From Natribaculum luteum (GTDB lineage Archaea; Halobacteriota; Halobacteria; Halobacteriales; Natrialbaceae), in NCBI RefSeq assembly GCF_023008545.1, contig NZ_CP095397.1, positions 2,294,001-2,358,000 of the forward strand: DNA of 64,000 nt. The letters run 5' to 3'. The notes beneath the pieces are model-generated. The model did not search any database, had not been told where the DNA came from, and saw only the letters and a list, made by a program, of their open reading frames with translations. Every line of letters starts with the position of its first letter. Positions within the stretch are counted from its first letter, which is position 1. The position numbers were made by a program, and so were the translations under genes. Shown piece by piece: positions 28,732 through 48,979 of the stretch.

Positions 28732-28755
28732 AGATAGAATTCTCAGTTGCAACGC

Positions 28756-30438
28756 ATGGTACGAGACAACAAACAGGTCGAGTCCGGTCTCGACCGACGA
28801 CGCATCCTTCAGGGAATTGGTGCCGCCGGTGCGATGGCGGTCGCCGGCTGTCTCAGCGGAGACGGCGACGACAACGGCGACGGCAACGACAACGGCGATC
28901 AGGAACGCGCGATGCAGCTGCTCGAGGAAGGGTTCGAGGAGGAAGGCTTCGAACCGCCGTACGAGGCCGACCTCGTCACGAACGAGAACCCCGAGCGCGT
29001 CCAGTGGTCGCAAATCGTCCAGCAGGTCCTCGAGAACACGGGGTACTTCGACCTCGAACTGCAGCAGTACGAGTGGACGACCTACCAGGAGATCGTTCTC
29101 TCCGAGGAGTCCGCCGAAGAGAACCACCTCGCGGCACTCGGGTGGAGCGCCGGCTTCGACCCCGACGCCTACGTGAACTTCCTGCTACACTCTGACTTCC
29201 ATACGCCGTCGTGCTGTAACACGAACCACTACGCCAACGAGGAACTCGACTCTCTCATCGACGAGGGGAAGACGGAGACCGACCCCGAGGAGCGAGTCGC
29301 GATCTACGAGGAACTCCAGAACCTCGTCGCCCAGGAGTCGCCGCTCACTTTCGTCCGGTTCGGCGAGGAACTCATCGCCTACCGCGAAGAGGCCCTCGAC
29401 AACTGGACGGTCTCCCCCTTCGACAGCACGCGCTTCTCGACGATTTACAACGTCTACGCTGGCACGAGCATCTCGTTTGCCGACCCCGATGGGGACGGTG
29501 AACTCAAGGCTTCCGTCGGTGCCAACATCGCGAACTTCGACCCCACCCAGCAGAACGACACGACGTCCACCCAGGCGACCGTCCCCCTCATCTACGAGGG
29601 GCTGGTCGGCTCGGACTACAGCGGCGAACCTCAGCCGTGGCTCGCAGAAGACTGGGAGCAACAGGACGACACCACGTACACCTTCTACCTCAGAGAGGGC
29701 GTCCAGTTCCACAACGGCGAGGAGCTGACGGCCGACCACGTCAAAGCCTCGATGGAGCGATACAAGGGGACGCCGCGCGAGGCCGACGTCTACGACTGGC
29801 TCGGCGAGGACGGCGAGATCAGAGTCGTCGACGACTACGAACTCGAGATCGAACTCTCCGAACCCTACGCGCCGTTCCTGCTCAACGTCGGCAACGCGCT
29901 CATCGTCCCGATGGCCGGCATCGAGGAGGAGTACGGCGGCGAGGGTGCCGTCGACCTGCAGGAGGAGCCGATCGGCACTGGCCCGTACATGCACGAGGAG
30001 TACCAGCCCGACGAACTCTACCGGGTCTCGCGCAACGACGACTACTGGGGTCAGGAGCTCATGGACAGCGCGCCGGAACCGGATACGATCCAGTTCCGCG
30101 TCATCGTCGAGTCCTCCGTCCGACAGAGCGCCCTCGAGGCGGGCGACATTCACGTCGTGAGTCCGCCCCCGGCGTCGTTCCAGGACCTGGACGACAGCGA
30201 CGAGATCGTAGCAAAGAGTACGACGAGTGGCGGCTTCGACATGCTCATTCCCCCGGTCCAGCACGAGCCGTTCACTAACGCGAAGGTGCGCCGTGCACTC
30301 GCCCTCCTGATCCCGCGCCAGCAGATCATCGACACCGTCTACAACGGTATCGGTGTCCCGGCGTACGGGCCGATCTCGCCCGTCGCCAAGCGATTCGCGC
30401 TCGACAACGAGGAACTCATCGACGTCCTCGAAGGATAG
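28756..30438 (+). CDS. Peptide-type ABC transporter substrate-binding lipoprotein, circularly permuted
   Basis: This 560-residue SBP_bac_5-family protein captures solute outside the cell and delivers it to the permeases encoded downstream. Tat/lipobox signal: DRRRILQGIGAAG with Cys32 in AVAGC, then a Gly/Asp/Asn linker. Order is unusual. Residues about 52-234 (from ERAMQLLEE, through QIVQQVLENTGYFDLELQQ, to VSPFDSTRF) match the canonical C-terminal part. Residues about 240-560 match the canonical N-terminal and middle parts (GANIANFDPTQ, FYLREGVQFHNGEELTADHV, IGTGPYMHEEYQ, FTNAKVRRALALLIPRQQII). The protein ends LIDVLEG, where the canonical chain would continue into ERAMQLL. Confidence 0.9.
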   Translation: MVRDNKQVESGLDRRRILQGIGAAGAMAVAGCLSGDGDDNGDGNDNGDQERAMQLLEEGFEEEGFEPPYEADLVTNENPERVQWSQIVQQVLENTGYFDLELQQYEWTTYQEIVLSEESAEENHLAALGWSAGFDPDAYVNFLLHSDFHTPSCCNTNHYANEELDSLIDEGKTETDPEERVAIYEELQNLVAQESPLTFVRFGEELIAYREEALDNWTVSPFDSTRFSTIYNVYAGTSISFADPDGDGELKASVGANIANFDPTQQNDTTSTQATVPLIYEGLVGSDYSGEPQPWLAEDWEQQDDTTYTFYLREGVQFHNGEELTADHVKASMERYKGTPREADVYDWLGEDGEIRVVDDYELEIELSEPYAPFLLNVGNALIVPMAGIEEEYGGEGAVDLQEEPIGTGPYMHEEYQPDELYRVSRNDDYWGQELMDSAPEPDTIQFRVIVESSVRQSALEAGDIHVVSPPPASFQDLDDSDEIVAKSTTSGGFDMLIPPVQHEPFTNAKVRRALALLIPRQQIIDTVYNGIGVPAYGPISPVAKRFALDNEELIDVLEG

Positions 30439-30478
30439 CGTTAGACTCTAACCGCCCCTCCCCCTTGTCTATCGAAAC

Positions 30479-31426
30479 ATGAGCCTTTCACGGTACATTG
30501 TCAAACGTATCCTCGTCTCTATCCCCGTCTTGATCGGGGTAACGATGGTTTCGTTCGGGCTGGTACAGCTGATCCCGGGTGATCCGATCGAGTTCATACT
30601 CCAGTTTACGAACGTCTCACCCGAGGCCGAACAACGACTGTACGCCAAGTACAACCTCAACGAGCCCATCTGGAAACAGTATCTACTGTGGCTTCAGGAC
30701 GTACTGGTCCTGGACTTCGGCGAGTCTATCATCTCGGGCCGTGACGTCGCCTACGAGATCAGCACGCGACTCGATCACACGATCGCGCTCGGTCTCTTCT
30801 CGTGGCTGATCGGTCTGGGTGTCGGCATTCCGACCGGCATCATCGCCGCAGTCAAGCGCGGAACCATCACCGACGAGGTCAGTCGTATCGCCGCCCTGCT
30901 GGGAATCGCGACGCCGAACTTCTGGCTCGGCCTGATGTTGATCCTCGTTCTCAGTGTCAATCTCGGGCTCTTCCGGGCAATTCCGCCGGACGCCCCGCTG
31001 TGGAGCGCAGAGAAACTGAAGTTCCTCATCTTGCCCTCCGTGACCATCGGGACCGCATCCGCGTCGCTCATCATGCGTCTCGTCCGGTCGTCGATGCTCC
31101 AGGAACTCAACAAGGAGTACGTTCGGATGGCACGCGCGAAGGGGCTGAGCGAACGAACGGTCATCTTCAAGCACGTCCTTCGTAACTCGATGATCGCTGT
31201 CGTCACCGTCGCGGCGATCCAGATCGCGTTCATCATCAACGGGTCGGTCGTCATCGAGCAGGTCTTCTCGTGGCCTGGCCTCGGACGGCTTCTCGTCAGG
31301 TCTATCAGTCAGCGCGACTTCCCGATCATTCAGGCAGGCGTGTTGATGACCGGCGTCGCGATCGTGATCGCGAACCTGTTAGCCGACATCGTCTACTCGT
31401 GGCTCGATCCACGGATCCGCTACTAA
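30479..31426 (+). CDS. dppB: Dipeptide-type ABC transporter permease, DppB family
   Basis: This 315-residue membrane protein with about six TM segments. N-terminal family motif RYIVKRILVSIPVLIGVTMV and LIPGDPIEF. The EAA-type loop is EYVRMARAKGLSERTVIFKH (about 218-237). It forms the channel with the DppC product. It lies 40 bases after the SBP gene in the same operon. Confidence 0.94.
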   Translation: MSLSRYIVKRILVSIPVLIGVTMVSFGLVQLIPGDPIEFILQFTNVSPEAEQRLYAKYNLNEPIWKQYLLWLQDVLVLDFGESIISGRDVAYEISTRLDHTIALGLFSWLIGLGVGIPTGIIAAVKRGTITDEVSRIAALLGIATPNFWLGLMLILVLSVNLGLFRAIPPDAPLWSAEKLKFLILPSVTIGTASASLIMRLVRSSMLQELNKEYVRMARAKGLSERTVIFKHVLRNSMIAVVTVAAIQIAFIINGSVVIEQVFSWPGLGRLLVRSISQRDFPIIQAGVLMTGVAIVIANLLADIVYSWLDPRIRY

Positions 31427-31428
31427 GA

Positions 31429-32466
31429 ATGAAGCAGAAACAACGAGACACGACGACGCAGCGTGGTCGAATCCGAATTACTGGATTCGACGCCGAACGA
31501 GTGCGCAACCGGGAACCGATCTCGGGCTGGACCGAGACCGAATCCGACGGCGGCACCAGTCGGATGGAGTACGCCTGGCGACGATTCAAGAGCAATCGCC
31601 TCGCGATGCTCAGCGTCGGCGTCATGGCACTCATGGCCATCGTCGCCGTCCTCGCACGGCCGATCTCCGTCGACGTCGCCGGCATGTCGCTTACGGTACA
31701 GCCGTTCGCACTCACGCCGTACGGGCCCGGCGAGATGTTCGTCGGATCGCCACACGCAGCCCCGAGCGCCGAACACCTGATGGGGACCGACTGGTCGGGA
31801 CGGGACCTGTTCTCGCGCGTGCTCGTCGGGACCCGGTACAGCCTCTCGATCGGGCTGATCGCGACCGTACTTGCCCTGTTCGTCGGGATTCCACTCGGCT
31901 CGATCGCCGGCTACTTTGGCGGCTGGATCGACGAGGCGATCATGCGTCTCGTCGACGTTCTCTACGCGTTCCCGTTTCTCGTCCTCGCCATCGCGATCAT
32001 CGCGGTGCTCGGCCAGGGGTTCTGGAACCTGATCCTGGCGCTGACGATCACCGGGTGGATCAGCTACGCCCGTCTCATCCGCGGTGAGGTACTGAGCGTG
32101 AAAGAAAACGAGTACGTACTCGCGGCGAAAGCGCTCGGCGCGACCGATCGCTCGATCATCTTCCGTCACGTCGTCCCGAACGCGATGGCCCCGGTCATCG
32201 TCCAGGCGACGCTGTCGATCGGTACCGTCGTCCTCTCTGCGGCCGCGCTTGGCTTCCTCGGACTCGGTCTCACGCCGGGCACCCCCGAGTGGGGGACGAT
32301 GCTCTCGAGCACTCGCGACACCATCGCTCAGGGCTACTGGTGGGTGTCTGTCTTCCCCGGCCTGGCCATCGTCGTGTTCGTGCTCGCTATCAACCTGATG
32401 GGTGACGGGATCAACGACGCACTCGACCCACAGGGAGACACCGCAACGAAACAGAGGATGCAATAG
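31429..32466 (+). CDS. dppC: Dipeptide-type ABC transporter permease, DppC family
   Basis: This 345-residue permease has a polar N-terminal extension of about 45 residues (possible inner start at MEYAWRRF). First TM at about 59-76, then the LMGTDWSGRDLFSRVLVGTR motif. The EAA loop is EYVLAAKALGATDRSIIFRH (about 225-244). It lies two bases after dppB and directly abuts the ATPase gene, consistent with one operon. Confidence 0.93.
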   Translation: MKQKQRDTTTQRGRIRITGFDAERVRNREPISGWTETESDGGTSRMEYAWRRFKSNRLAMLSVGVMALMAIVAVLARPISVDVAGMSLTVQPFALTPYGPGEMFVGSPHAAPSAEHLMGTDWSGRDLFSRVLVGTRYSLSIGLIATVLALFVGIPLGSIAGYFGGWIDEAIMRLVDVLYAFPFLVLAIAIIAVLGQGFWNLILALTITGWISYARLIRGEVLSVKENEYVLAAKALGATDRSIIFRHVVPNAMAPVIVQATLSIGTVVLSAAALGFLGLGLTPGTPEWGTMLSSTRDTIAQGYWWVSVFPGLAIVVFVLAINLMGDGINDALDPQGDTATKQRMQ

Positions 32467-33516
32467 ATGGCACTACTCGAAGTCAACGATCTAGTTACGC
32501 AGTTCTACACTGAGGACGGAACCGTTCGCGCGGTCGACGGCGTGAGCTATCAGATCGACCGCGGTGAAAAGTTCGGCGTCGTCGGCGAGAGCGGTGCCGG
32601 CAAGAGCGTGACGAGCCTGTCGGTCATGGGCCTCATCGAGAGCCCCGGTGAGATCGTCGGCGGGGAGATCCTCTTCAAAGGGGAGAACCTCCTCGAGAAG
32701 AGTCCCGAAGAGATGCGCCGCATCCGCGGCAACGAGATCGCCATGGTGTTCCAGGACGCCGAGACGGCTCTCAACCCCGTCTACACGGTCGGCGAGCAGA
32801 TCGCCGAGGGGATCCGCACGCACAAGGACGTCTCGGACGAGGAGGCCAAAGAGCAGGCGATCGAGATGCTCGCGAAGGTCGGCATCCCCGACCCGGCAGA
32901 GCGCTACAGCGATTACCCCCACCAGTTCTCCGGTGGGATGCAACAGCGTGCGGTCATCGCGATCGCACTCTCCTGTGATCCCGACCTGCTCATCTGTGAC
33001 GAGCCCACGACGGCACTCGACGTCACGATCGAGGCGCAGATCCTCGAGTTGCTCGACGAACTGGCGTCGGACTTCGATACGGCGATCCAGCTCATCACGC
33101 ACGACCTCGGCGTCGTCGCCGAGATCTGCAACCGCGTGATGGTGATGTACGCCGGCAAGGCCGTCGAGAAAGCGCCCGTCGAGGACCTCTACTACCAGCC
33201 CAAACACCCCTACTCGGTCGGCCTGATGGGGTCGATCCCGCGCATCGGCGACAGGCGCGACCGCCTCGAGACGATTCCGGGGACGATGCCCGACCTCGTC
33301 GAAGTGCCGCCAGGCTGTAGTTTCCACCCGCGGTGTCCGTACGCCGAGGAGGCCTGCAGTCGGAAAGAGCCGCAACTCGTCGACGTCGAGACCGGGGAGC
33401 CGTCGAACCCGAACGACGACGGCGAACACGCCGCCGCGTGTCTGGCCTATACGGGCGACCTCGAGGACGAACTGTCCTACCAGGTCGAAGTACTGACGGA
33501 GGAGACCTATGAGTAG
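32467..33516 (+). CDS. dppD: Dipeptide-type ABC transporter ATPase, DppD family
   Basis: This 349-residue ATPase. Walker A GESGAGKS (about 39-46), Q-loop VFQDAETALNP, signature [12 protein letters not shown], Walker [14 protein letters not shown]-loop [10 protein letters not shown]-terminal oligopeptide/dipeptide domain with cysteines GCSFHPRCPYAEEAC and a later AAC. It pairs with the next gene, which it overlaps by 8 bases. Confidence 0.95.
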   Translation: MALLEVNDLVTQFYTEDGTVRAVDGVSYQIDRGEKFGVVGESGAGKSVTSLSVMGLIESPGEIVGGEILFKGENLLEKSPEEMRRIRGNEIAMVFQDAETALNPVYTVGEQIAEGIRTHKDVSDEEAKEQAIEMLAKVGIPDPAERYSDYPHQFSGGMQQRAVIAIALSCDPDLLICDEPTTALDVTIEAQILELLDELASDFDTAIQLITHDLGVVAEICNRVMVMYAGKAVEKAPVEDLYYQPKHPYSVGLMGSIPRIGDRRDRLETIPGTMPDLVEVPPGCSFHPRCPYAEEACSRKEPQLVDVETGEPSNPNDDGEHAAACLAYTGDLEDELSYQVEVLTEETYE

Positions 33517-34513
33517 CCAACCGCTCGTTCAGGCAGACGAACTGACGAAGTACTACAGCAACGCCGACGGTTTCCTCGACCGGATGCTCGGCAATCAGTC
33601 GCAGGTTCGCGCCGTCGACGGCGTCGACCTCGAGGTCCGCGAGGGCGAGACACTCGGTCTGGTCGGCGAATCCGGCTGCGGGAAGAGTACGCTCGGTCGC
33701 ACGCTCCTCCAGCTCGAAGAGCCCACGGACGGACACGTCTACTTCAAAGGCGAAGACATCACGGACCTGTCGGGATCGGCGCTCCGGAAGAAGCGCCGGG
33801 AGATGCAGTATATCTTCCAGAACCCCTTCGCCAGTCTGAACCCCCGACTGACGATCAACGACATCGTCGGCGAAGCGCTCGACGTTCACGGCATCGCCGA
33901 CGGCGAAGAACGGGACGCCCGAATCGCGGAGATCCTCGACACGGTCGGCCTGAAGTCGAGCCACGCCAACCGTTACCCACACGAGTTCTCCGGCGGCCAG
34001 CGCCAGCGGATCGGCATCGCCCGCGCGCTCGCGGTCGACCCCGACTTCGTCGTCTGTGACGAGCCGGTCTCCGCGCTCGACGTCTCGGTGCAGGCACAGA
34101 TCCTCAACCTGCTCGAGGATCTACAGAGCGACCTCGGCCTCTCGTATCTGTTCATCGCTCACGACCTCTCGGTCGTCGAGCACATCGCCGACCGCATCGC
34201 TGTCATGTACCTCGGCGAGATCGTCGAGGTCGGGACGGCAGAAGAGATCTTCAGCCCGCCGTACCACCCGTACACGCACGCGCTGCTGTCTGCGATCCCG
34301 GAACCCGACCCGCTCTGGAAAGGCGACCGCGTCATCCTCGAGGGATCGGTGCCGTCGCCACTCGATCCGCCCAGCGGCTGTAAGTTCCATACCCGCTGTC
34401 CTATCGCCCAGGACGACTGCGGCGAGTGGGAGGACCACCCGGACCTCGAGTCCGTCGGCGGCTCCCACAAGATCGCGTGCCCGTACCACGAGATGATCGA
34501 CACCGAGGTCTGA
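33509..34513 (+). CDS. dppF: Dipeptide-type ABC transporter ATPase, DppF family
   Basis: This 334-residue ATPase. Walker [12 protein letters not shown], signature [15 protein letters not shown], Walker [17 protein letters not shown]-loop [10 protein letters not shown]. The C-terminal [14 protein letters not shown] cysteine region is intact and ends in KIACPYH. It is the last gene of the first importer operon. Confidence 0.95.
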
Positions 34514-35312: not shown

Positions 35313-36650
35313 TTACTCCGTCAATCGGAGTTCGTCGGGTTCCACGTGGGCGTCGTCGAGCAGATGACAAGCAGCCTCCTGTTCGGTGCCACAGCCCTCG
35401 AGTTCCGGTTTCTCGCGTTCACAGACGGTCGTGAATTCCTCCACGAGGTGTGCGTTCGCGCGTTCGTGGTCGCCGTCGACGAGCGCATCGAGTGCGTCGT
35501 CGAGCGTCGCTTCGGCACGCGGATCGTCCAGCCGAACGGGGACGTCGTACTCGGACCGAATCCACCGTTTGAGATCCGCGTCGTCGACCCTTTCCGGCGA
35601 CGGGTCCTCGAGGTCCCCGTATTTGCCGTCCGATTCCAGGACACCAACCTCGGCGATGCTCTCTACGTCGATCGACTCGCGCTCGACCTGTTTGCGAAAG
35701 GTGAGGACGGATCGCCAGGTCTCCTGTGGCAGATCGATCCCCGACGGCGGGATCACCTCCGGACAGCGCGTGTGGAACTTACAGCCACTCGGCGGATCCG
35801 ACGGATCCGGGACGTCGCCTTTGAGTTCGACGCCGAGGCCCCGGTCCGTCGGATCGGGCGTCGGGATGGCGGACAGCAGCGCCCGCGTGTAGGGATGCTG
35901 TGGATTCGAGAACAGTTCCTCGGTCGGCCCGACTTCCACGAACTCGCCTAGGTACATCACCGCGACGCGGTCACACACCTGACGGACGACGCCCAGATCG
36001 TGACTGATGATGAGCACCGTCAGCCCCAGTTCTCGCTGGAACTTGTCGATGAGCCGGAGGATTTCCGCCTGGACAGAGACGTCGAGCGCCGACACGGGTT
36101 CGTCGGCGACGAGGAGTTTCGGGTTCACCGTGAGCGCTCGGGCCAGCCCGATCCGCTGTTTTTGGCCCCCGGAGAACTCGTGTGGATACCGCTTCATGTC
36201 CGCGGCCGAGAGGCCGACGCGCTCCAGGAGGTCGGCGACGATCTCCCGGCGTCGCTCGCGATCGGCCATCCCCTGGACGACGAGCGGTTCCGCGACGGCG
36301 TCGCCGACGTTCATCCGGGGGTCGAAACTCGAGTCCGGGTCCTGGAAGATCAACTGGACCTCTCGGCGAAACCGGCGGAGCTCCGCCGCGTCGTACTCGA
36401 GGACGTTTTCGCCCTCGAAACGGATTTCGCCGTCCGTCGGCTCCTCGAGGCGAACCATCGACGCCGCCGCGGTTGACTTGCCACAGCCGGATTCGCCGAC
36501 GATGCCGAACGTCTCGCCGCGCTCGAGTTCGAGACTGATTCCGTCGACTGCACGGGCCCGGCCGACTTCCGTGTTCAGTATCCCCTCGGTGATCGGATAG
36601 TGTTTTTTCAGCCCGCCGACGCGGAGCAGCGGATCGCCGGATCGACTCAT
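35313..36650 (-). CDS. dppF: Dipeptide-type ABC transporter ATPase, DppF family, with C-terminal insertion
   Basis: This 445-residue protein is about 110 longer than usual. Walker [13 protein letters not shown], signature FSGGQKQRIGLARAL, Walker [18 protein letters not shown]-loop ISHDLGVV. The C-terminal Cys motif is split: HTRCPEVIPP at about residue 293 is followed by a charged insertion of about 110 residues before VCEREKPELEGC. The other importer's ATPase has the same motif uninterrupted. It overlaps the upstream ATPase gene by ATGA and is last in its operon. Confidence 0.94.
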   Translation of the reverse strand: MSRSGDPLLRVGGLKKHYPITEGILNTEVGRARAVDGISLELERGETFGIVGESGCGKSTAAASMVRLEEPTDGEIRFEGENVLEYDAAELRRFRREVQLIFQDPDSSFDPRMNVGDAVAEPLVVQGMADRERRREIVADLLERVGLSAADMKRYPHEFSGGQKQRIGLARALTVNPKLLVADEPVSALDVSVQAEILRLIDKFQRELGLTVLIISHDLGVVRQVCDRVAVMYLGEFVEVGPTEELFSNPQHPYTRALLSAIPTPDPTDRGLGVELKGDVPDPSDPPSGCKFHTRCPEVIPPSGIDLPQETWRSVLTFRKQVERESIDVESIAEVGVLESDGKYGDLEDPSPERVDDADLKRWIRSEYDVPVRLDDPRAEATLDDALDALVDGDHERANAHLVEEFTTVCEREKPELEGCGTEQEAACHLLDDAHVEPDELRLTE

Positions 36651-37759
36651 CGCCGATCACCTCGCTCGAGGTCGTCGGTCGGAGACGGCGATCCAGCGGG
36701 TTCGGCGTCGGTGTTCAGGACGGTACTCGACTCTCGTCCCGGTTCGAAGTGAACGCAGGAGGTCGTGTGATCCGACGCGTCCCCGACCCGGTGCATCTCC
36801 GGCTGGTCGCCGGTTCGACAGGCGTCGATCGCGTGCGGACAGCGATCCGCGAACCGGCAGCCGGGCGGCGGCGACCGGGGATCCGGGAGTTCGCCGGGGA
36901 TGCCACCGATCCCGCCTCGCCCTGGGAGACAGTCGAGGAGCGCCCGGGTGTAAGGGTGGGCCGGCGTTTCGAAGACGTCCACGACCGACCCCTTCTCCAT
37001 GATCTTTCCGGCGTACATCACGGCCACGCGATCGGCGATTTCGGCGACGACGCCGAGATCGTGCGTGATGAATAACATCCCCATGTCCCGTTGCTCCTGG
37101 AGCTCTGCGAGTAGCTTCAGAATCTGAGCCTGGATCGTGACGTCCAGCGCCGTCGTCGGCTCGTCGGCGATCAACAGGTCCGGTTCGCAGGCCAGCGCGA
37201 TCGCGATAAGCACCCGCTGTTGCATCCCGCCGGAGAACTCGTGTGGGTAATCGTCGAGTCGGGAACTCGCCTCGGGAATCCCGACCTGCGTGAGTAACTC
37301 GACGGCGCGCTCGCGGGCCTCGGATTTGGACACGTCGGCATGGAGTTGAAGCGCTTCGCGGATCTGCCAGCCGATCGTGTACACCGGGTTCAGCGCACCC
37401 TGTGGGTTCTGGAAGATGTGGCTCACCTCGCCACCCCGGACGTGACGTAGTTCTTCGTCCGACAGATCGGAGATCTCCCGCCCGTTGATCTCGATCGAGC
37501 CCTCGGGAATGTAGCCGGGCGGGGACTTGAACAGCCGCGTGATCGCTTCGCTGGTGACGGTCTTTCCCGATCCGCTTTCGCCGACGATCGCGACAGTTTC
37601 GCCGGGTTCGACGGTCAGCGAGATCCCGTCGACTGCCCGCACGTCCTCGCTGTCCGTCCTGAAGTACGTATGGAGGTTCGAGATCTTCAGGAGAGGCTTA
37701 TCGTCCCGTTTGGTCGATACGTGTCGAGCGTCGGTCGTGTCGTCGTCTCGTGTACTCAT
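36647..37759 (-). CDS. dppD: Dipeptide-type ABC transporter ATPase, DppD family
   Basis: This 370-residue ATPase. Walker [15 protein letters not shown]-loop [12 protein letters not shown], signature [15 protein letters not shown], Walker [14 protein letters not shown]-loop [11 protein letters not shown]. The C-terminal [15 protein letters not shown] cysteine region is present. ATG 37759 is chosen because it overlaps the DppC stop (ATGA) and the longer frame is Arg-rich. It has a polar tail with no known function. Confidence 0.94.
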
Positions 37760-38991
37760 TCTCCACTCCCTCCGTGTCTCGGGTCGAGCGCGTCCCGGAG
37801 CGCGTCGCCGAGGAAGTTGAACGCGAGGATGGTGAAAAACAGGAATCCGCCCGGGATCGTCGAGATCCACCACGCGGTGCGGAGTTGATCGCGACCGTCC
37901 GCGATCAGCCGCCCCCACGACGGAACCGTGGGATCCCCGAGTCCGAGGAACGCGATCGCGGCCTCAGCCAGGATGATCGACGGAATCGTCAGCGTTGCGG
38001 CGGTGATGAGGCTGTTCGAGATGTTCGGCAGGAGGTGCCGGCGAATCGTCCAGAGACTCGATGCACCAGCGTTCTTCGCGGCCTGCATGTACGGCTCCTC
38101 GCGGCGCTGGAGCGCTTCCGAGCGCATGATTCGGGCGGACGACCCCCACCCGAACAGGCCGAAGATGAGGATGAGCACGAACAGGCTGCCGCCGATCGTG
38201 TACGCGAGCAACAGGAACAGGAAGAACGTTGGGAACGTCATCTGGATATCGACGTAGCGCATCAGCACCTCGTCGACGAGGCCGCCGTAGTAGGCGGCCG
38301 TCAGGCCGACCGCCGCAGCGACGGCGATGCTCATCAGCGTCGCGATCAGGCCGACCTGCATGCTCACCTCCATCCCGTAGATGCTCGACAGCAGGATGTC
38401 CTCGCCCGAGGAGGTCGTCCCGAGTGGATGTTGCCAGCTTCCCTGACACATCGTCACGCCGTCTACCGTCGTCATCCCGCCGGCACAGTTGGTCCCGGCG
38501 TTGTACGCTTCGATCGATCCCCAGACCGGCGGCTGATTCTCCAGCCCCGGCGTCGGTCCGGGTTCCGGAAGCACACGAGGACCGATCACACCGACCGCGA
38601 AGACGACGATCAGGTACAGCGCGCTGACGACTGCCGCTTTGTTTTTCTTGAACTCCTTCCAGTAGTAGCGGGTCATCCGCGGATTCTCGTACAGCGGGAC
38701 GACGCCGTAATACAGGAGGACGAGCAGCGTAAACGACCACAGCCAGTCGACCGGCGAGACCGGTCCCAGCACCGGAAACGCCGCCTGCCCGGTTTCGGCG
38801 ACGAATCGAGAGTACAGATCGTACGCCACCCCGATCGACCACAGGCTCACGACGGCGAGCCAGGCGACCCGCTTTCTCGATCGCGCCACGCCGTCGGCGT
38901 CGATCTCGTCCCAGTCGACCTGCTCGAAGGTCACGTCCCCAGGTGCGGTACCGCCGTCCGTCTTCGTCCGCGTATCCGTATCCTCGTCCAT
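37756..38991 (-). CDS. dppC: Dipeptide-type ABC transporter permease, DppC family
   Basis: This 411-residue permease is longer than its counterpart at 31429 because it has an extra N-terminal TM pair (about 45-110) and a Cys-containing external loop (NAGTNCAGG, GVTMCQGSW; a possible disulfide). Core motif HPLGTTSSGEDILLSSIYGM. The EAA-type loop EEPYMQAAKNAGASSLWTIR is present. It overlaps its neighbours by 1 and 4 bases. Confidence 0.93.
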   Translation of the reverse strand: MDEDTDTRTKTDGGTAPGDVTFEQVDWDEIDADGVARSRKRVAWLAVVSLWSIGVAYDLYSRFVAETGQAAFPVLGPVSPVDWLWSFTLLVLLYYGVVPLYENPRMTRYYWKEFKKNKAAVVSALYLIVVFAVGVIGPRVLPEPGPTPGLENQPPVWGSIEAYNAGTNCAGGMTTVDGVTMCQGSWQHPLGTTSSGEDILLSSIYGMEVSMQVGLIATLMSIAVAAAVGLTAAYYGGLVDEVLMRYVDIQMTFPTFFLFLLLAYTIGGSLFVLILIFGLFGWGSSARIMRSEALQRREEPYMQAAKNAGASSLWTIRRHLLPNISNSLITAATLTIPSIILAEAAIAFLGLGDPTVPSWGRLIADGRDQLRTAWWISTIPGGFLFFTILAFNFLGDALRDALDPRHGGSGE

Positions 38992-40055
38992 TAGCGATCA
39001 CCGTAGTCGATCCGCGGGTCGAGTACCGCGTACATGATGTCCTCGATCAGGTTGCCGACGATCGCGACGAACGTCGGCAGGAGGATCGTTATCGCGACCA
39101 GGTCAGTGTCCTGCCTGATGATTGCCTGGAACGACGCCAGCCCGATGCCGGGTATCCCGAACACCACCTCGATCAGGTACGAGCCGAACAGGACCAGTCC
39201 GAGGATCCGCCCGACGAGGATCGTCATCAACGGAATCGACGCTGGCCGGAAGATGTGCTTGGCGACGATCGCCCGGCTGCTGACGCCTTTCGACTTCGCG
39301 GTCTTGACGAAGTCGGCGTCGACGTACTCGAGTGCTTCCGCGCGCGCGTAGCGCATGACCGAGGCGATCGCGCCCGTCATCAGCACGAACGTCGGCAGGA
39401 TGAGCTGTTTGAGGTTCGCCGGACTGAGGATGCCGACGTAGCGCTCGCCCTCGAAATCCTGGCGGAAGAACGCCGGATGGTCGGAGCCAGCGGTCTCGAG
39501 TAGGGTCCAGCTTCCGTCCGCCGCCTTCGGGAGTGCAGCGTTCCAGCCGATGTCGACCCAGCCGAGCCACGATCCGAAGACGACGAGCAACACGATCCCG
39601 AACCAGAAGTTCGGAATGCTGATCCCGAAGAAGGCCGCGAACGTCGCCGCGTAGTCTTTCTTCGTGTACTGGTTGACCGCCGAGTAGAGCCCGATCGCAG
39701 TCCCGATGATCGTCGACAGGACGATCGCGGGAACCCCGTACAGCAGCGAGTACGGGACGGTTTCACGGACGACGTCGACGACCGGCTGGTCGTACTCGTA
39801 GGACCAGCCCCAGTCACCCTGGAAGACGTTCGTCATGAAGTCGACGTATCGTTCGTGGAACGGTCGATCCAGGCCGAGCCGTTCCCTCTCTGCCTGGACG
39901 GCCGTTTCGACGTCCACGTCGTTTATTGCCGCCTGGAACTCCGCCTGCATGAGCTGCTGGTTCGGAACCTGGTCCATCAGCACGAACGTGATCGTGAGGA
40001 TGAGAAACGACGCGAATGCGGCCCAGAGCACCCGGCGAATGACATACCATTTCAT
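38991..40055 (-). CDS. dppB: Dipeptide-type ABC transporter permease, DppB family
   Basis: This 354-residue membrane protein. N terminus WYVIRRVLWAAFASFLILTI, then a long external segment. Six or so TM helices. EAA loop DFVKTAKSKGVSSRAIVAKH (about 260-279). Its TAA shares one base with the start of the DppC gene. It lies 47 bases after the SBP gene. Confidence 0.93.
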   Translation of the reverse strand: MKWYVIRRVLWAAFASFLILTITFVLMDQVPNQQLMQAEFQAAINDVDVETAVQAERERLGLDRPFHERYVDFMTNVFQGDWGWSYEYDQPVVDVVRETVPYSLLYGVPAIVLSTIIGTAIGLYSAVNQYTKKDYAATFAAFFGISIPNFWFGIVLLVVFGSWLGWVDIGWNAALPKAADGSWTLLETAGSDHPAFFRQDFEGERYVGILSPANLKQLILPTFVLMTGAIASVMRYARAEALEYVDADFVKTAKSKGVSSRAIVAKHIFRPASIPLMTILVGRILGLVLFGSYLIEVVFGIPGIGLASFQAIIRQDTDLVAITILLPTFVAIVGNLIEDIMYAVLDPRIDYGDR

Positions 40056-40102
40056 AGAGCGTGTATTGGAAAACTCCGTACTGTATTCGTAGTCCGCGCG
40101 GC

Positions 40103-42004
40103 TCAGACCTCTTCGAGCGTGAAGTTGTCGTTGTCGCGCAGGAGGTCACGCGCCGCGACGATGTCGTCTTCGGTGATGTCGATGCCGTAGACGTCGACCG
40201 CAGACTCGTCGTACCAGTCGGACCACGTCGGCTGGAAGGTGACCGCGGGGTCAGCCTGCCCGCGCCGGATGTCCTGGGTGATCGTCTCCTTGTCGACCAC
40301 GCGCGCGATGGCTTCCCGGCCGTCCCGCTCCCGAGTCAGGATGCTCCCGTTCGATCGCTGGTTGAAAAAGAGGAAGCTGATAAACGGGTCCTGCTGGTCT
40401 TCGACGCGGATCTCGTCGACGGCTTCCTGGAATTCCTGGACGTTCTCGCTCGGGAGTTCCATCCGGTCGGCCTCCGTGTTGCGGAACCGCTCGACGCGGG
40501 TCGACTGCTCGGCCTCGACGTCGAACTGGAACTGATCGAAGTAGGGCGCGTCCGCCCACGCGTCGTCCATGACCTGGACGTTGCTGTCGTCCGTGTGCTC
40601 GCGCATGTAGTAGTCGTCGTTGCGGACGGCTGTGAACGATCCCGTCTGTCCGGGCGTTCGATCTTCGAACGTGTACGCGCCGAGGTTGCCGGTCCAGGTG
40701 AACTCCTGTACCTCGTCGGACTGGCGAAGCGCCTCCGCGTCGGGCGCGTACTGCTCGTAGAGCGCTCGCGGGTAACAGTACTCGCTCCACAGGATCGGCC
40801 GGAGTGGGAACAGCGGGTCCGGTTCGACGAGTTCGATCTGGAACTCGAGTTCTCCGGTCTGTTCGACGTTCTCGACGTCCACCCACTCTTCAGGCTGGCC
40901 CGGCGGCAGATCCTCGTTCCACATGTCGGCCGCGTCGTCGGCCACGCCGTGGACGTTCTCGATCTGGAAGACCCAGTCTTCTGCGGTCATCTGGCCGTAC
41001 GGGTTGCCGTCCGCGTCGGTCCCAAACTCGAGGTTGTCCCGGAGGGTGCAGATCCACACCTCCCCGTCGCCGCTATCCTCGACGTCCATGAACAGCGGAA
41101 AGACCTCGTCGTTCGTGTCGACCGCGTAGGAGGTGTCGGAGATGAGGCCCGTCCTGTAACTCGAGTTGACGTCCTCCTGTTCGGGCAGGTACGCCTCGTT
41201 GAACTGATTGCCTGTCAGCCAGACGTAGTCGCCGCCGACAGTCTGGTCGTCGCGATATCGGTTGATCCAGTCGGGCGAGTAGCCGTAGAGGTTGAACTCG
41301 TCTGACGTGTTGATGCGCTCCTCGAACCCCCAGAATCGCAGCGACTCCGACATGAAGTTCGCCGGGAGTTCGTCGGTGAGCGCACCCATGATCTCGTTGA
41401 GGTACTCCTGCTGTTCCGCTTCCGTTTCGGCGTTCCGGAACTCCTCGTACAGACCCTTCATGTCGACTTCGGGAACGTAGCCGTAGGCGTTCGTCCCCGA
41501 GTCTTTCAGCCAGAACGTGTCGGTGTTCCCCGGGGTCCGCGGGTACGAGTTTGCGGCGATGCCATAGAGCATGTCCCAGTCGGAGACGGTCCGGGTTCGG
41601 TCCGGCGGACCAGCGTTGAACAGGCCCGGATTGTACTCGAAGTCCTCTGGATCCTCACCCGGCAGCGGTTCCGAACCGAAGTGGTCGCCGATGAGTTGCG
41701 TCTTGCCCTCGAGTTGCAGGTCGACGCCGATCTTCTCGAGGTCGCTCTGTATCTGGGACGCGATGTCCTGGTGGGTGTCGTCACCTTGATCGAAGAAAAT
41801 CGTCGGTGCGATCCGATCACCGTCCGGCCCGTACAGTTCGACTTCCGGAAGGTCCGCTGACGGATCGTTGTCGTCGTCCGGCTCGGATCCGAAACAGCCG
41901 GCGAGACCGGCGGCGGCACCGATACCGACCGTCTGGAGGACTCGTCGGCGGGAACTCGTCGCTTTCAGGTTCGCACGTTTGTCTCCCGTGAAACGGTTTG
42001 ACAT
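40103..42004 (-). CDS. Peptide-type ABC transporter substrate-binding lipoprotein, circularly permuted
   Basis: This 633-residue SBP_bac_5-family lipoprotein. Tat/lipobox SRRRVLQTVGIGAAAGLAGC with Cys37. The order is again permuted. Residues about 51-250 (VELYGPDGDRIAP, IASQIQSDLEKIGVDLQLEG, ADELPANF-like region, WGFEERI) match the canonical C-terminal part. Residues about 255-633 match the canonical N-terminal and middle parts (CTLRDNLEFGTDADG, MTAEDWVFQIENVHG, and the DGREAIARVVDKETITQDI segment before the end). The chain ends ARDLLRDNDNFTLEEV, which in a canonical protein would run into VELYGPDG. ATG 42004 is supported by the TATA box at 42031-42040. Confidence 0.9.
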   Translation of the reverse strand: MSNRFTGDKRANLKATSSRRRVLQTVGIGAAAGLAGCFGSEPDDDNDPSADLPEVELYGPDGDRIAPTIFFDQGDDTHQDIASQIQSDLEKIGVDLQLEGKTQLIGDHFGSEPLPGEDPEDFEYNPGLFNAGPPDRTRTVSDWDMLYGIAANSYPRTPGNTDTFWLKDSGTNAYGYVPEVDMKGLYEEFRNAETEAEQQEYLNEIMGALTDELPANFMSESLRFWGFEERINTSDEFNLYGYSPDWINRYRDDQTVGGDYVWLTGNQFNEAYLPEQEDVNSSYRTGLISDTSYAVDTNDEVFPLFMDVEDSGDGEVWICTLRDNLEFGTDADGNPYGQMTAEDWVFQIENVHGVADDAADMWNEDLPPGQPEEWVDVENVEQTGELEFQIELVEPDPLFPLRPILWSEYCYPRALYEQYAPDAEALRQSDEVQEFTWTGNLGAYTFEDRTPGQTGSFTAVRNDDYYMREHTDDSNVQVMDDAWADAPYFDQFQFDVEAEQSTRVERFRNTEADRMELPSENVQEFQEAVDEIRVEDQQDPFISFLFFNQRSNGSILTRERDGREAIARVVDKETITQDIRRGQADPAVTFQPTWSDWYDESAVDVYGIDITEDDIVAARDLLRDNDNFTLEEV

Positions 42005-47025: not shown

Positions 47026-47805
47026 CTAGGCCTCGAGCACTTCGTAGGTCACGTCGCCGTCTCTGAGCGTGTCGGTGACGCGTCCGACGGCATCGATCGT
47101 GGCGACGACGGCCACCTCGAGGCCGCGTTCTGCGGCGTCGGCTGCGACCTCGCCGACGGCAAAGGTCACGTCGGGATCGACGCCGGCCTCGCGCAGCGAG
47201 ACGACGGCTTCGACGCCGGCGGCGGCGACGAGGTCGGTGTCCGCACAGCCGTCGGCGATCTGGTCGACGTCGACAACGCGGCTGCCGCCCGCGCGGACCG
47301 CCGGTACCTGCCACACCGTCACCGAGCCCGGCTCGAGGTCGATGACACCCTCGAAACTCGTGACGCCGACGTCGGTGCCGGCGGCGGCGTCTGTCGTCGC
47401 GACGCCGGTCGCCGGCCCCTCGGTTCCCGGGCTGGCGTGGAGGAGGCCGTCTCTGATGGATAGCGAGACGGTATCGCCTTCCGACAGGTCGTCGGTTGCG
47501 ATGGCAGCGTCTTCGCCCATCGCGCCGAGGACGTCTTCGGTGACGTGGTCGGCGAACCGGCGAACGTCACCGGCAGCCTGGAAGAGCCAGTCGACGCCCT
47601 CTTTGGTGACGCGATACCGCGAGCGGCCCTCTTTCTCGACGAGTCCGTCGTCGACGAGCGCACGGATGTACTCGCTTACTGCCTGACTCGTCACGTCTAC
47701 TTCGTCGGCGATCTCTCCCTGACTGACCGCCGGCTGGCGCTCTGCGATCTCGACCAAGATGCGAAACCGCGTCGCCGCTCGTTTGTTGTCGAGGACGTCG
47801 ACCAT
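47026..47805 (-). CDS. Winged-HTH transcriptional regulator (MarR/TrmB-like N terminus)
   Basis: This 259-residue protein. The N-terminal wHTH (about 1-75) has MVDVLDNKRAATRFRILVEI, SQGEIADEVDVTSQAVSEYI and EKEGRSRYRVTKEGVDWLFQ. The C-terminal about 170 residues (from TEDVLGAMGEDAAIA) form an Asp/Val-rich sensory-type domain typical of haloarchaeal DUF7839-like regulators. ATG 47805 is chosen over 48072 since a TACTTTTTG box lies about 30 bases before it. It is divergent from artA. Confidence 0.85.
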   Translation of the reverse strand: MVDVLDNKRAATRFRILVEIAERQPAVSQGEIADEVDVTSQAVSEYIRALVDDGLVEKEGRSRYRVTKEGVDWLFQAAGDVRRFADHVTEDVLGAMGEDAAIATDDLSEGDTVSLSIRDGLLHASPGTEGPATGVATTDAAAGTDVGVTSFEGVIDLEPGSVTVWQVPAVRAGGSRVVDVDQIADGCADTDLVAAAGVEAVVSLREAGVDPDVTFAVGEVAADAAERGLEVAVVATIDAVGRVTDTLRDGDVTYEVLEA

Positions 47806-48043
47806 GTCTCTCAGTTCTTTCGACGTTGGCAAAAAGTACGCGGTCCACTCGAGACGGGTCGTCCCCGCCGTAGACGCGGACCCGGTCGACTCGAGGACAC
47901 TCACCGAAGGCGTCAGGTTGATTGCGGATGGGGCCGTGGTGTCGAGACGAACAATGTCGTCAGCGTCAGCGGTGGCCCCGCTATCATCGACTGTCGGTGT
48001 CGAACCTCCGGTTGCGTCACTCGCGCGCGTCGTGGAACCGACG

Positions 48044-48979
48044 ATGGCGTTCTCGGTCCCGAGTTCGTTCACCGACGTCCTGGCGTGGGTCGTGATCGGT
48101 GCGTTCGTCCTGTCGGTCCTCCTGGAGTGGCTCGACGTTGCGGACGCGCCGCGGTACGTCGCGTCGGCCGCGTGGGTGATCTTCGGCGTCTTCTGGCTGG
48201 CGCTCGTGCCCCACTACTACTATCACGTTCAGAGCCCGATCGAGACGATCCTGAGTCTCGCCGCCCTCCCGCTGTCGCTGTACACGGCCGTCCTCCTGTT
48301 CCGGGGGCGGGACTCGCTGCTCGTGCTCTCGAAGGCGGTCGCGTTCATGGGGCTGATCTACCTGCCCGCGGAGACGATTCCGTTCGTTCGCACGTGGCTG
48401 ATCGAGACGACCGCCAGCCAGGCCCACTGGGGGATGGAGCAGTTCGGCTACAGCCCCGGCCTCGTCGAGGGGGCAAACGGCTACCAGAGCCGCTTTGACT
48501 TCGACCCCGACGAGACGGTGACCGGTCGAACCACGTACATCGTCATGGCCTGTACGGGAATCGGGAGCATGGCGATCTTCGGTGGGTTGATCGCCGCCGT
48601 CAAAGCGCCGCTGCGACGCAAGGCAGCGGGCTTTGCCTTCGCGGTCGGCATCATCTGGTTTCTCAACCTCGTGCGAAACGTCTTCATCGGGCTGGCCTCG
48701 CCGTGGGGCTGGTTCCAGCAGGAACCGCTGGTCTACGTCGTGACCACGTACCTGGGGGAACCGGCGAGTCGCACCTCGTTTCTCGTCGCCCACAACTACA
48801 TCGGCCAGACGCTGTCGGTCGTCGCACTCGTCGGGATCACGTACCTCGTCGTCCGGATCGTTCCCGAGGTTCTCGTCGTCCTCGAGGACGTCCTGTTCGT
48901 GCTCACCGGCACCGAGTACGACCTCGAGGACGCCCTCGGCCCGTCGGTGCGAGCCGACGGTGGCGAACCGAAGCGATGA
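48044..48979 (+). CDS. artA: Archaeosortase A
   Basis: This 311-residue multi-pass membrane transpeptidase cleaves PGF-CTERM proteins such as S-layer glycoprotein and aids lipid attachment. Catalytic residues are recognisable: Cys in VMACTGIGSMAIFGG (about 168), Arg in WFLNLVRNVFIGLASP (about 212), His in LVAHNYIGQTLSVV (about 250). About eight TM helices. ATG 48044 is chosen as the start of the first hydrophobic segment; the longer frame overlaps the divergent promoter region. Its stop overlaps the next gene by ATGA. Confidence 0.95.
   Translation: MAFSVPSSFTDVLAWVVIGAFVLSVLLEWLDVADAPRYVASAAWVIFGVFWLALVPHYYYHVQSPIETILSLAALPLSLYTAVLLFRGRDSLLVLSKAVAFMGLIYLPAETIPFVRTWLIETTASQAHWGMEQFGYSPGLVEGANGYQSRFDFDPDETVTGRTTYIVMACTGIGSMAIFGGLIAAVKAPLRRKAAGFAFAVGIIWFLNLVRNVFIGLASPWGWFQQEPLVYVVTTYLGEPASRTSFLVAHNYIGQTLSVVALVGITYLVVRIVPEVLVVLEDVLFVLTGTEYDLEDALGPSVRADGGEPKR

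Follow-up and report, generated by a model that had tools for sequence, protein, structure and literature searches.

P0001, a predicted substrate-binding lipoprotein encoded in the 64,000-nucleotide stretch of Natribaculum luteum DNA analysed here (the window), is a circularly permuted relative of the SBP_bac_5, or cluster C, substrate-binding proteins (SBPs) rather than a standard member. With high confidence, we assign it to an Opp/Dpp-type importer as its permuted cluster C SBP, and conclude that kindred permutations arose independently, several times, in the same region.

Results

P0001 carries the canonical segments in swapped order

The P0001 gene occupies positions 40103..42004 on the minus strand, stop codon included, as a single uninterrupted ORF of 633 aa with zero internal stop codons; all of its parts are given on that strand. 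The product opens with a twin-arginine (RR) signal peptide and a lipobox running to Cys37 (41894..42004, SSRRRVLQTVGIGAAAGLAGC), conserved among relatives. The RR motif and lipobox Cys are those of a haloarchaeal Tat lipoprotein, and from them Tat export and lipidation are predicted. An acidic linker (41843..41893, FGSEPDDDNDPSADLPE), whose length differs from relative to relative, leads from the lipid anchor to the new N-terminus of the folded chain. The canonical C-terminal segment then comes first (41252..41842, HMM about 327/345-487), starting near residue 55 with VELYGPDG and reading VELYGPDGDRI..., then ...IASQIQSDLEKIGVDLQLEG. The canonical N-terminal segment comes second (40106..41251, HMM 14-339), from about residue 252, close to the residue of about 255 at which the first-pass annotation of this DNA had placed the canonical opening region. 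The chain ends in the helix ARDLLRDNDNFTLEEV, which in canonical proteins continues into VELYGPDG, a continuity that the annotation had correctly anticipated.

A canonical profile of 510 positions was built from unpermuted haloarchaeal SBPs and searched with single and doubled mature sequences. P0001 mature residues 9-196 matched profile positions 327-487, and residues 216-590 matched positions 14-339; the doubled sequence gave one match over positions 14-487 (327 bits). Canonical SBPs gave a single full-length match without doubling. This result bears out the permutation claimed in the first-pass annotation, and comparisons with Pfam and with solved structures agree on the swapped order. Pfam SBP_bac_5 (PF00496) matches P0001 with 121 bits, against a curated cut-off of 32.4, and its positions 11-274 align to residues 309-623. 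Among PDB chains, P0001 residues 59-98 correspond to AppA 354-393, residues 67-100 to YntA 333-366, and residues 306-352 to YntA 50-90; the stretch from VELYGPDGDRI to IASQIQSDLEKIGVDLQLEG lies about two thirds along the chain in the cluster C structures used for comparison. None of the NCBIfam models covers the permuted proteins above its own cut-off, and P0001 scores far under that of the DppA model. Structural models reached a pLDDT of only 34 and 28 (P0002, the second permuted SBP of the window, alone, and P0001 with one near-identical homologue), the alignments being too shallow.

Five relatives share the P0001 order and are colinear with it over nearly the whole chain, at 95, 93, 64, 42 and 44-45% identity (genomes G001, G018, G014, G028 and G033). 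G001 is Natribaculum breve, the 95% relative coming from strain TRM20010; N. breve was also the only genome returned when genome contigs were scanned with a single protein query. Both halves of P0001 occur in canonical order within one ORF in G026 (best, 43%), G006 and others. Colinear permuted and unpermuted relatives together exclude the two circumstances that would have spoken against permutation, namely a co-linear alignment to canonical SBPs and a gene model joining two genes. An artefactual order, created by a sequencing or assembly error that fused genes, or by domain shuffling of unrelated SBPs into a chimera, has nothing in its favour beyond the odd order itself. We give it a negligible probability, since the order is repeated in independent genomes at 42-95% identity with no internal stop, the canonical-order ORFs of G026, G006 and others unite both halves in a single family, and dN/dS (NG86) of P0001 against N. 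breve and G018 is about 0.12-0.13. The P0001 gene is under purifying selection, and the conserved order in independent genomes led us to reject the fusion or assembly artefact.

Two cut classes flank one helix of the C-lobe

P0002 is encoded at 28747..30438 on the plus strand and represents an independent event. Mapping of the cuts, bridged via L061 and E. coli DppA, placed the P0002 cut at about DppA 324-327, ahead of helix YDPEKAKALLKEAG, and the P0001 cut at about DppA 340-345, past the same helix. The two cuts therefore flank one helix, about 17-20 residues apart, and not within a few residues of each other as had been claimed; since they differ, alignments of P0001 and P0002 are misaligned at the N-terminus. 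Nor do the cuts lie at the hinge. We take DppA Domain III to start near residue 261 (1dpp structure). In EppA, Domain III is contiguous and flanked by both hinge strands (PMC7312458). By comparison with these two proteins, the cuts of P0001 and P0002 are 60-80 residues past the hinge, well within the C-lobe, and are accurately described as falling in one shared loop-helix-loop. All permuted-SBP cuts are confined to one region of about 30 residues and form two classes, before the helix (genus g33 and P0002's family) and after the helix (the other counted events).

Permutation arose inside an existing operon

Downstream of P0001, on the same strand, lie two BPD permeases and two oligo_HPY ATPases, which place the gene in an Opp/Dpp-type importer operon. 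These are a DppB/OppB-type permease (38991..40055, BPD_transp_1 and BPD_transp_1_N), whose slot matches that in relatives, a DppC/OppC-type permease (37756..38991, BPD_transp_1 and OppC_N), and two ABC ATPases with an oligopeptide-transporter C-terminal region (36647..37759, start codon inferred, and 35313..36650; both ABC_tran and oligo_HPY). The same SBP-permease-permease-ATPase-ATPase slot holds permuted genes in G014, G033, G416, G380, G216 and G138, and canonical genes in G026, G271, G132, G194 and G040. This syntenic replacement, with identical five-gene order around permuted and canonical orthologues, indicates that permutation arose inside an existing operon.

In the window, one Opp/Dpp-type importer operon runs along the plus strand (28747-34513) and another converges on it from the minus strand (35313-42004), with about 0.8 kb between them; each is headed by an independently permuted SBP. 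Elsewhere in the window, positions 47759-48979 (plus strand) encode a candidate for archaeosortase A, the PGF-CTERM anchor enzyme, judging by sequence resemblance seen by eye. In G040, the canonical family-A SBP gene (L180, G040:C1:410120-411853) seems broken, with an open frame of 396 aa and the remainder out of frame, and the four downstream transporter genes are still present.

Permuted SBPs have at least five origins

Of the eight SBP_bac_5 proteins encoded by the window's genome, four are permuted, and more permuted groups were found across 392 genomes of the phylum; a search of viral contigs found no relatives. Trees of 61 and 95 rows were built with all sequences rotated to canonical order, together with a 95-row control tree from the N-terminal segment alone, for which rotation is unnecessary. 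Both 95-row trees required nine order changes, of which six are forced by supported branches, with gains and reversals only partly separable; some intermediate nodes are weakly supported (L126/L127 with L031/L032, 93/35; L134, 87/52). A single clade for all permuted proteins was rejected (lnL 751 lower, p-AU 5.6e-9), as was holding P0001's family (family A) together with P0002 (lnL 443 lower, p-AU 3.9e-41).

Phylogeny combined with cut class gives at least five independent permutation events: P0001's family, perhaps with L077/L078 (cut after the helix); a recent event in genus g33 (before the helix); P0002's family, L031-L039 (before the helix); the L048/L049 group (after the helix); and the old group 3 (after the helix). 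L144, whose family belongs to the phylum but not to P0001's order, may be a sixth. This permuted SBP (G237, family f21), which lies outside Halobacteriales, has an ordinary signal peptide and, in place of a lipobox, a C-terminal PGF-CTERM-like anchor.

A single ancient permutation behind all permuted SBPs, both window proteins included, with many lineages reverted to canonical order, would account for the confinement of every cut to one region of about 30 residues and could draw on the existence of an old, trans-domain permuted clade. We nevertheless hold it to be very improbable. The topology tests reject both the all-permuted clade and the union of family A with P0002, the cut sites of sister groups are one whole helix apart, the permuted g33 genes are a derived clade nested in a canonical family and have a cut class of their own, and repeated reversion would be needed to regain the canonical order of the solved structures. 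On the strength of the topology test (p-AU 5.6e-9), the single-origin reading was rejected, and the question whether permutation arose once is answered in the negative. The first-pass annotation had offered either an old permuted subfamily or repeated selection. Repeated origin is supported by the nine changes, and a single subfamily with both window proteins is contradicted (p-AU 3.9e-41); an old permuted subfamily does exist as group 3, with P0001 outside it. The recurrence implied by repeated selection likewise stands, but selection does not follow from it, since a permissive loop and drift also give recurrence.

A recent event within one genus

Among the 52 genomes of g33 searched, 19 have the permuted gene, and about 15 have its canonical orthologue. 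The permuted genes form one clade (support 100/100), and their proteins keep the signal and acidic linker. At the junction, the old C-terminus runs directly onto the old N-terminal strand (...NGWDLPAWYEGE joined to PEVSGSYDTV...) with no linker; the new ends read FYPSTDE* and ...DFPRFGVDDLYG. The linker-free junction implies that the original termini are near each other in space, which would ease permutation of the cluster C fold.

An old permuted group spans two domains of life

A permuted query gave single-piece colinear matches in haloarchaea and in Alphaproteobacteria (Nitratireductor, Maritalea, Microvirga, Neorhizobium, Roseomonas and Ketogulonicigenium), but its matches to ordinary bacterial SBPs were split into two pieces. 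The alphaproteobacterial permuted SBPs and haloarchaeal group 3 form one clade (100/98), separate from P0001 and P0002. Members of group 3 (e.g. Nitratireductor WP_113156578.1 and Halalkalicoccus jeotgali WP_238532955.1) resemble P0001 in belonging to the same fold family, in being permuted and in having their cut past the same helix; they differ in forming a separate old clade, P0001's family having been permuted independently. We found no description of the group-3 subfamily in the literature searched. P0003, a permuted alphaproteobacterial protein, lacks a lipobox in its otherwise ordinary signal peptide, which means that permutation does not depend on tethering; L133 is also permuted and lacks a lipobox.

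Two tandem permuted SBP_bac_5 lipoprotein genes in the window's genome (L066 and L065, G000:C1:3637155-3638738 and 3639863-3641473) are distantly placed within group 3. Permuted SBP_bac_5 genes also occur on alphaproteobacterial plasmids (L150:5875-7473 and L182-L186), annotated as 'ABC transporter substrate-binding protein' at most, or not at all; M28 peptidase genes adjoin L185 and L186, a hint of peptide uptake.

Discussion

We propose that P0001 most likely folds as the usual two-lobed trap, tethered to the membrane, and that it would take up a solute (peptide or other) and pass it to the two neighbouring permeases. The original N- and C-termini would be joined in the N-lobe, and the new termini, hence the lipid anchor, would lie in the loop-helix-loop of the C-lobe, shifting the anchor from N-lobe to C-lobe. 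Circular permutations are classically explained by tandem duplication with subsequent fusion and trimming, presumably the route taken here. No fused-duplicate intermediate was seen by eye in the loci read, where open frames as long as 1240 aa were measured from stop to stop.

The permutation recurs, and we consider a structurally permissive site a more probable cause than selection, because the two forms of the gene replace each other in the operon and permutation occurs independently of lipidation. With modest confidence, we lean towards a neutral site, made up of spatially adjacent termini and an exposed C-lobe loop, at which permutation brings no advantage. Such a site agrees with one operon slot holding either permuted or canonical orthologues, with termini that can be joined without a linker, and with alphaproteobacterial members such as P0003, whose lack of a lipobox means that tethering is not needed. 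It sits less easily with permuted clades that persist and dominate some groups (the 19 g33 genomes, four of the eight SBP_bac_5 proteins in the window's genome), although a benefit is not proven thereby.

Alternatively, permutation could have been selected because an anchor moved from N-lobe to C-lobe alters the trap's seating on the permeases or its freedom to open. Most archaeal cases are predicted lipoproteins, the PGF-CTERM-like anchor of the non-halophile L144 would likewise sit at the C-lobe, and tethering was raised by the authors of the TpMglB-2 study as one reason for permutation in that protein (PMC4990184). Yet being a lipoprotein does not set the permuted cases apart from canonical haloarchaeal SBPs, which share that feature, and soluble permuted cases exist (the alphaproteobacterial P0003; L133, without a lipobox), which leaves this explanation rather unlikely. 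That cluster C SBPs of archaea and of one alphaproteobacterial group are under recurrent selection for permutation at one C-lobe element is, more broadly, doubtful; the reason for such selection would be a relocated anchor or a changed folding order, and with it an altered action of the trap on its importer. A neutral permissive site remains our preferred explanation.

The natural circular permutations known so far are usually solitary, ancient events. In the cluster C SBPs, at least five permutations, including one inside a single genus, hit one element of one fold, and this recurrent re-ordering in one small region amounts to a repeated natural experiment. Permuted and canonical orthologues in one slot offer paired natural replicates in which chain order and anchor position can be set against the working of a binding protein. 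In practice, profile-based annotation captures only part of the permuted SBPs, which need rotation prior to alignment or tree building.

Once rotated, P0001 is homologous across the entire folded chain to DppA, OppA, NikA and AppA (cluster C, PF00496), and it shares with them an Opp/Dpp-type operon and a lipoprotein or secreted form; it differs from them in its swapped chain order and new termini in the C-lobe. Permuted order was absent among solved chains in the best 60 of about 100 matches listed per search. In DppA, R355 and D408 contact the ligand (PMC8566422); their equivalents were not recognisable in family A, which aligns poorly there, and the label 'Dpp-type' given to P0001 by the first-pass annotation applies to fold and operon type only. 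In the literature searched we found no natural permuted SBP from archaea or from the Opp family, and the sole relevant precedent is TpMglB-2 (Tp0684) of Treponema pallidum, a natural circular permutation classed as 'Type Ic/Cluster Bc' that still binds ligand and closes (PMC4990184). Such an identity was rejected for P0001, which gives only SBP_bac_5 (cluster C) matches. Both are naturally permuted ABC substrate-binding proteins, tethered in the case of TpMglB-2 and predicted to be so in that of P0001, but TpMglB-2 has a cluster B sugar-binding fold, with its cut in the N-lobe and an extra hinge crossing. Moreover, TpMglB-2 was reported as one family, whereas the cluster C SBPs described here were permuted repeatedly.
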